A stretch of 64,000 nt of DNA from Anas platyrhynchos (Eukaryota > Chordata > Aves > Anseriformes > Anatidae). Location of the stretch: the NCBI RefSeq assembly GCF_047663525.1, contig NC_092606.1, forward strand, positions 1,619,501 to 1,683,500. Direction: 5' to 3'. This document shows, in pieces, positions 19,211 to 37,357 of this stretch. The notes beneath the pieces are model-generated. The model ran no database searches and was not told the DNA's origin. It saw only the letters and a list, made by a program, of their open reading frames with translations. How positions within the stretch are numbered: the stretch's first letter is position 1; each line of letters opens with the position of its first letter. A program made the position numbers and the translations under genes.

Positions 19211-37357
<18,147 letters not shown>

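Follow-up and report, generated by a model that had tools for sequence, protein, structure and literature searches.

Background

HNF1B helps to set the border between rhombomeres 4 and 5 (r4/r5), and also acts in pancreas and kidney. The gene is contained in a 64,000-nucleotide stretch of the Anas platyrhynchos genome (contig NC_092606.1, positions 1,619,501 to 1,683,500 of the forward strand; hereafter the window, with positions counted from its first letter). A reading made from the letters alone (the sequence-only reading) singled out in the fourth intron of HNF1B a candidate binding site for the RAR/RXR pair of receptors, a direct repeat with a five-base spacer (DR5), and proposed it as the avian core of a retinoic acid (RA)-responsive enhancer reported from that intron in other vertebrates. 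The computational follow-up of this proposal is described here. Papers are cited by their PMC accession.

The published evidence on fourth-intron regulation of this gene comes from several vertebrates. In a comparison of a 157-kb mouse Hnf1b segment with human, rat, opossum, chicken, frog, and zebrafish, the fourth intron of every one of the seven species, chicken among them, held a conserved element, CNS2, which was described as identical to an earlier characterised neural enhancer, for which Pouilhe 2007 is credited (PMC9675860). By chromatin immunoprecipitation, zebrafish hnf1ba and mouse Hnf1b each have RAR sites in their fourth intron and also beyond the 3' side of the gene; the elements holding these sites are conserved within fish or within mammals, and the divergence between fish and mammals is too great for alignment (PMC8608873). 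A cluster of elements conserved between human and zebrafish lies in intron 4 of HNF1B/hnf1ba, with another in intron 5, and the human and zebrafish intron-4 elements each drive hindbrain reporters. All intron-4 and intron-5 constructs gave hindbrain expression, those from intron 5 gave heart expression as well, and none gave expression in endoderm (PMC7619044). In Xenopus, Hnf1b has been described as a direct target of RA, and two predicted mouse RA response elements (RAREs) are cited (PMC6031401). The sequence-only reading had presupposed a fourth-intron enhancer with RAR input elsewhere in vertebrates; PMC9675860 and PMC8608873 agree with this and, given the published CNS2, the RAR sites in the same intron, and the direct RA target status of the gene, the premise is sound. 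The passages found print CNS1 oligonucleotides (PMC9675860) and mnx1/skap1 primers (PMC8608873), and none of them prints HNF1B intron-4 sequence.

A DR5 element in the fourth intron of HNF1B

The DR5 lies on the minus strand at 26,957-26,973 and reads GGGTCA-CGCCG-TGGTCA (GGGTCACGCCGTGGTCA). It fits the consensus RGKTCA-N5-RGKTCA at 11 of the 12 half-site bases, and matches the sequence pattern of DR5 RAREs (paired RGKTCA with a five-base spacer) only when one mismatch is tolerated. The five-base spacing is the usual RAR/RXR form (PMC8608873). On re-reading, the bases, strand, coordinates, number of matching bases, and spacing given by the sequence-only reading were all exact. The likeliest of the readings considered is that this DR5 is the RAR/RXR site of the HNF1B intron-4 neural enhancer in this genome and the counterpart of the known RARE, to which a probability of roughly 0.5 is assigned. 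Shifted by one base, the element becomes a perfect repeat, GGTCAC-N5-GGTCAC, a regularity that was spotted post hoc. Its surroundings (26,930-27,000) are 75% GC. The possibility that it is part of a local repeat was rejected, as it falls within none of the families and arrays listed by repeat searches of 26,000-28,500 and of the whole window.

The placement of the DR5 depends on the gene model, for which HNF1B exons were located by tblastn with a human HNF1B protein query. The coding exons are collinear on the plus strand of the window. Exon 1 (19,211-19,548), exon 2 (23,727-23,926), exon 3 (25,031-25,295), exon 4 (25,650-25,891), exon 5 (31,924-32,087), and exon 6 (from 34,825) are placed by their splice junctions. 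Exon 4 holds the end of the homeodomain and the start of the C-terminal region, and the best PDB match of its translation is HNF1-beta (2da6, E 3.1e-30). The Pfam family HNF-1_N was matched by exons 1 and 2, and HNF-1B_C by exon 4 and by 34,825-35,250, which comprises exons 6 and 7 with a short intron between them; no Pfam family was matched by exon 3. The gene as a whole is compact and GC-rich in this window, which makes an avian origin plausible.

By its splice junctions, intron 4 spans 25,892-31,923 on the plus strand and is 6,032 bp long. The DR5 starts 1,065 bp past the first base of this intron, between the end of exon 4 at 25,891 and the beginning of exon 5 at 31,924, where the sequence-only reading had placed it and in the intron that carries CNS2 in other vertebrates. 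A position within an exon or in another HNF1B intron is ruled out by the tblastn exons together with the splice junctions. A pattern search for vertebrate relatives with the exon-4 protein gave 15 matches in viral contigs and 87 in genome contigs, none of which was confirmed.

Frequency of comparable elements by chance

Candidate receptor pairs were scored with a general half-site weight matrix, and the score of the observed DR5 itself served as the threshold in simulated introns with a dinucleotide make-up similar to that of HNF1B intron 4. By this matrix, the reported DR5 (15.69) tops all direct repeats of spacing one, two, or five (DR1, DR2, DR5) in intron 4, and stands above the other five one-mismatch DR5s of the window; a DR4 at 5,810 and an inverted repeat of spacing eight (IR8) at 42,754 are tied with it. 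An equally good DR5 was present in 1.8% of 400 simulated introns, and pairs of equal score in 4.3% when DR2 was also admitted, 6.8% for DR1, DR2, or DR5, and 15% for any spacing from 0 to 8 (DR0-8). When 60 windows of 64 kb were simulated, an equally good DR5 was found in 22% and any DR0-8 in 87%. A chance DR5 of such quality is to be expected in about one whole-window scan in five, and it is only from its location that the DR5 gains weight.

A MAF half-site beside the DR5

An AT-rich half-site for large MAF proteins, TTTTGCTGAC, shares the minus strand with the DR5 and occupies 27,069-27,078, at a distance of 95 bp. Large MAF proteins prefer an AT-rich flank at the half-site. The motif WWWTGCTGAC occurs three times in the 64 kb, one occurrence being TTTTGCTGAC, and the shorter WWWTGCTGA occurs in intron 4 only at 27,069-27,078. 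Half-MARE activity has been described (PMC10606904). A possible second half-site, TGCTGA at 26,804-26,809 on the plus strand, lies across the DR5 from TTTTGCTGAC; it is weak, and intron 4 has five TGCTGA in all. The enhancer of Pouilhe 2007 reportedly has one RARE and two sites related to T-MARE half-sites; of the two candidates here, TTTTGCTGAC is the strong one and TGCTGA the weak one. An exact 21-base pattern spanning the MAF site had no match in viral contigs.

In simulations, WWWTGCTGA fell within 130 bp of the DR5 position in 2.6% of 1,000 introns, and a DR1, DR2, or DR5 this good fell within 150 bp of an AT-rich MAF half-site in none of 1,500. The latter limits were chosen to match the observed site, and therefore the looser limits on the same pairing, which gave 34 and 266 of 1,500 introns, are the fairer guide. 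Overall, the DR5 and TTTTGCTGAC, 95 bp apart, fit an RA plus MAF design.

TTTTGCTGAC is held by an AT-rich island (27,039-27,093) of 42% GC without CpG, the first of the 17 that intron 4 contains. Around both motifs, a candidate RA/MAF enhancer may extend over 26,800-27,450, with limits guessed from motif positions and CpG content. The CpG observed/expected ratio is 0.69-0.88 in 200-bp intervals starting at 26,892-27,392, compared with 0.21-0.48 in those starting at 26,592-26,792; other stretches of intron 4 equal or exceed the higher range (up to 1.26), and thus the rise is non-specific. Farther along the intron, a run of AT-rich islands of 38-43% GC stands amid GC-rich sequence at 28,376-28,928; it has the look of a deeply conserved non-coding block and is the chief competing location for CNS2.

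Proposed mechanism

At a DR5, RXR occupies the 5' half-site and RAR the 3' half-site; by this polarity, GGGTCA would be bound by RXR and TGGTCA by RAR. RA in the posterior neural plate would then swap corepressor for coactivator at the DR5, with which HNF1B transcription would begin behind the r4/r5 border, and in r5/r6 HNF1B would be maintained by MAFB, acting at TTTTGCTGAC. It is inferred in this scheme that RAR/RXR would bind the element, and that the sequence around it would act as an enhancer orthologous to the mouse element. Overall, the interpretation is plausible and partly supported. As HNF1B has a role at the r4/r5 border, such an RA input would tie a morphogen gradient to brain segmentation.

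Alternative explanations

Several observations weigh against assigning the DR5 to the neural enhancer. Its sole mismatch, a T in place of A or G, falls on the first base of the 3' half-site, and the element adjoins but falls outside the AT-rich island at 27,039-27,093, in GC-rich sequence rather than in an evident conserved core. The margin of the DR5 over the next DR5s in the window, which score 14.89 (at 16,448) and 14.60 (at 58,811), is small. With up to one mismatch, the DR5 consensus occurs 6 times in the 64-kb window against 4.12 +/- 1.95 in shuffled sequences, and at least 6 matches were reached in 25 of 100 shuffles; therefore, such matches are not enriched. In mouse, 150,000 or more good DR2/DR5 matches show no significant RAR binding (PMC3091300). 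Hnf1b is not named among the eight RA-dependent mouse genes with a conserved DR5 in a motif search that covered 5 kb either side of start sites (PMC3634737), and according to a review, a set of RAR-gamma2 targets that includes Hnf1b shows DR7 besides DR2 and DR5 (PMC10110968).

It is possible, if somewhat doubtful, that the DR5 is a chance match, and that the true CNS2 lies with its own RARE elsewhere in the intron, such as in one of the AT-rich blocks at 28.0-28.9, 29.2-30.8, or 31.2-31.4 kb. Matches to the DR5 consensus at chance level in the window would be consistent with this, as would the cluster of conserved elements described in intron 4 (PMC7619044) and the distribution of AT-rich islands, 16 of 17 of which lie outside 26.8-27.45 kb. 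The 200-bp interval 28,392-28,591 has both the lowest GC content (38%) and the highest CpG observed/expected ratio (1.26), and receptor pairs are found near the rival blocks. For instance, an everted repeat of spacing two (ER2), TGACTTGAAGGTCA, is located at 28,137-28,150, and an inverted repeat of spacing one (IR1), AGTTCA-G-TGAACC, at 31,123-31,135, about 0.8 kb before exon 5. The latter is a near-perfect palindrome that outscores the DR5 and is the top direct, inverted, or everted pair (spacing 0-8) of the whole window. By their sequence, the blocks at 28.0-28.9 and 29.2-30.8 kb resemble deeply conserved elements no less than the candidate enhancer, and may just as well represent CNS2 or the cluster conserved between human and zebrafish. 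However, none of the rival blocks has a direct repeat (spacing 0-8) of equal score or an AT-rich MAF half-site. A second alternative retains the enhancer at the MAF island (27,039-27,093) and makes the DR5 a bystander, with RA input passing through a more degenerate site. The position of the DR5 outside the island, within 75% GC sequence, points in that direction, as does the failure of the gene's RAR sites to align between mouse and zebrafish (PMC8608873), yet no other direct repeat of spacing 0-8 in intron 4 reaches the score of the DR5, and this arrangement is judged decidedly unlikely.

The RA input may also differ in its history from a fixed ancestral RARE, having been replaced over time next to a MAF-containing core that is itself deeply conserved. 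This possibility arises because the published mouse and fish RAR sites are non-alignable, and it is regarded as unlikely. Under such turnover, the GC-rich DR5 just outside the core would serve in this genome, and mouse and fish would rely on different intron-4 sites that do not align; if this holds, absence of the DR5 from mammals would be compatible with a role in birds. That the DR5 chiefly serves other nuclear receptors (NR2F/COUP-TF) and acts in repression or competition is highly improbable. These receptors accept many half-site spacings, but a spacing of five is the usual form for RAR/RXR (PMC8608873), and the direct RA target status of the gene has been reported in Xenopus (PMC6031401).

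Other features of the window

Upstream of the gene, the known renal HNF1B enhancer CNS1 provided a cross-species control. The probe was a Xenopus laevis oligonucleotide that carries a mutated Pax8 site, as printed in PMC9675860. It matches the window collinearly at 14,219-14,239 (20/21) and 14,252-14,263 (12/12), within an AT-rich island (14,212-14,299) that precedes the HNF1B start codon by approximately 5 kb, and thus CNS1 is recognisable from frog sequence at about 14.2 kb. At least nine AT-rich islands are listed in 12-19 kb, so that the island alone is not specific for CNS1, and four further printed CNS1 primers gave no strong match among the matches listed. The same upstream region contains a one-mismatch DR5, GGATCA-AACGC-GGGTCA, at 16,448-16,464 on the plus strand, about 2.7 kb upstream of the start codon and with a slightly lower score than the intron-4 element.

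Intron 5, the home of a second conserved element active in the hindbrain (PMC7619044), contains a DR7-type pair, AGGTCA-N7-GGGGCA, at 33,771-33,789 on the minus strand. A GGGACGGGATGGGAC-type tandem repeat occupies 32,559-32,652 of the same intron. The CR1 tail repeat, looked for as a sign of bird origin, gave no match.

Three neighbouring genes share the plus strand with HNF1B. The first, HEAT-repeat-like (1-10,900, with a Pfam match below the cut-off), is upstream of HNF1B, a DEAD-box helicase gene is found at 45,700-52,000, and a third gene at 54,300-64,000. By synteny and the appearance of their peptides, these are probably HEATR6, DDX52, and SYNRG, respectively.

Comparison with known systems

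If the favoured assignment is correct, the DR5 is an ordinary site of known type in a known enhancer, and a known rule is extended unchanged to another species; it would also supply a 17-bp target within an enhancer known from mouse. The human and zebrafish conserved cluster shares the intron and is associated with hindbrain reporter expression, although it may correspond to another block here (PMC7619044). With the mouse vHnf1/Hnf1b fourth-intron neural enhancer (CNS2 in PMC9675860), the DR5 has both gene and intron in common.

Like the classical DR5 RAREs of RARB2 and HOXA1, the element consists of paired hexamers in one direction with a five-base spacer. The classical half-sites are GGTTCA/AGTTCA, whereas here the element is one base off consensus, and both its spacer and its half-sites, GGGTCA and TGGTCA, are GC-rich. 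The mouse enhancer reportedly pairs its RARE with MAF-type half-sites, and here the DR5 and TTTTGCTGAC stand 95 bp apart, a likeness of motifs rather than of aligned sequence.
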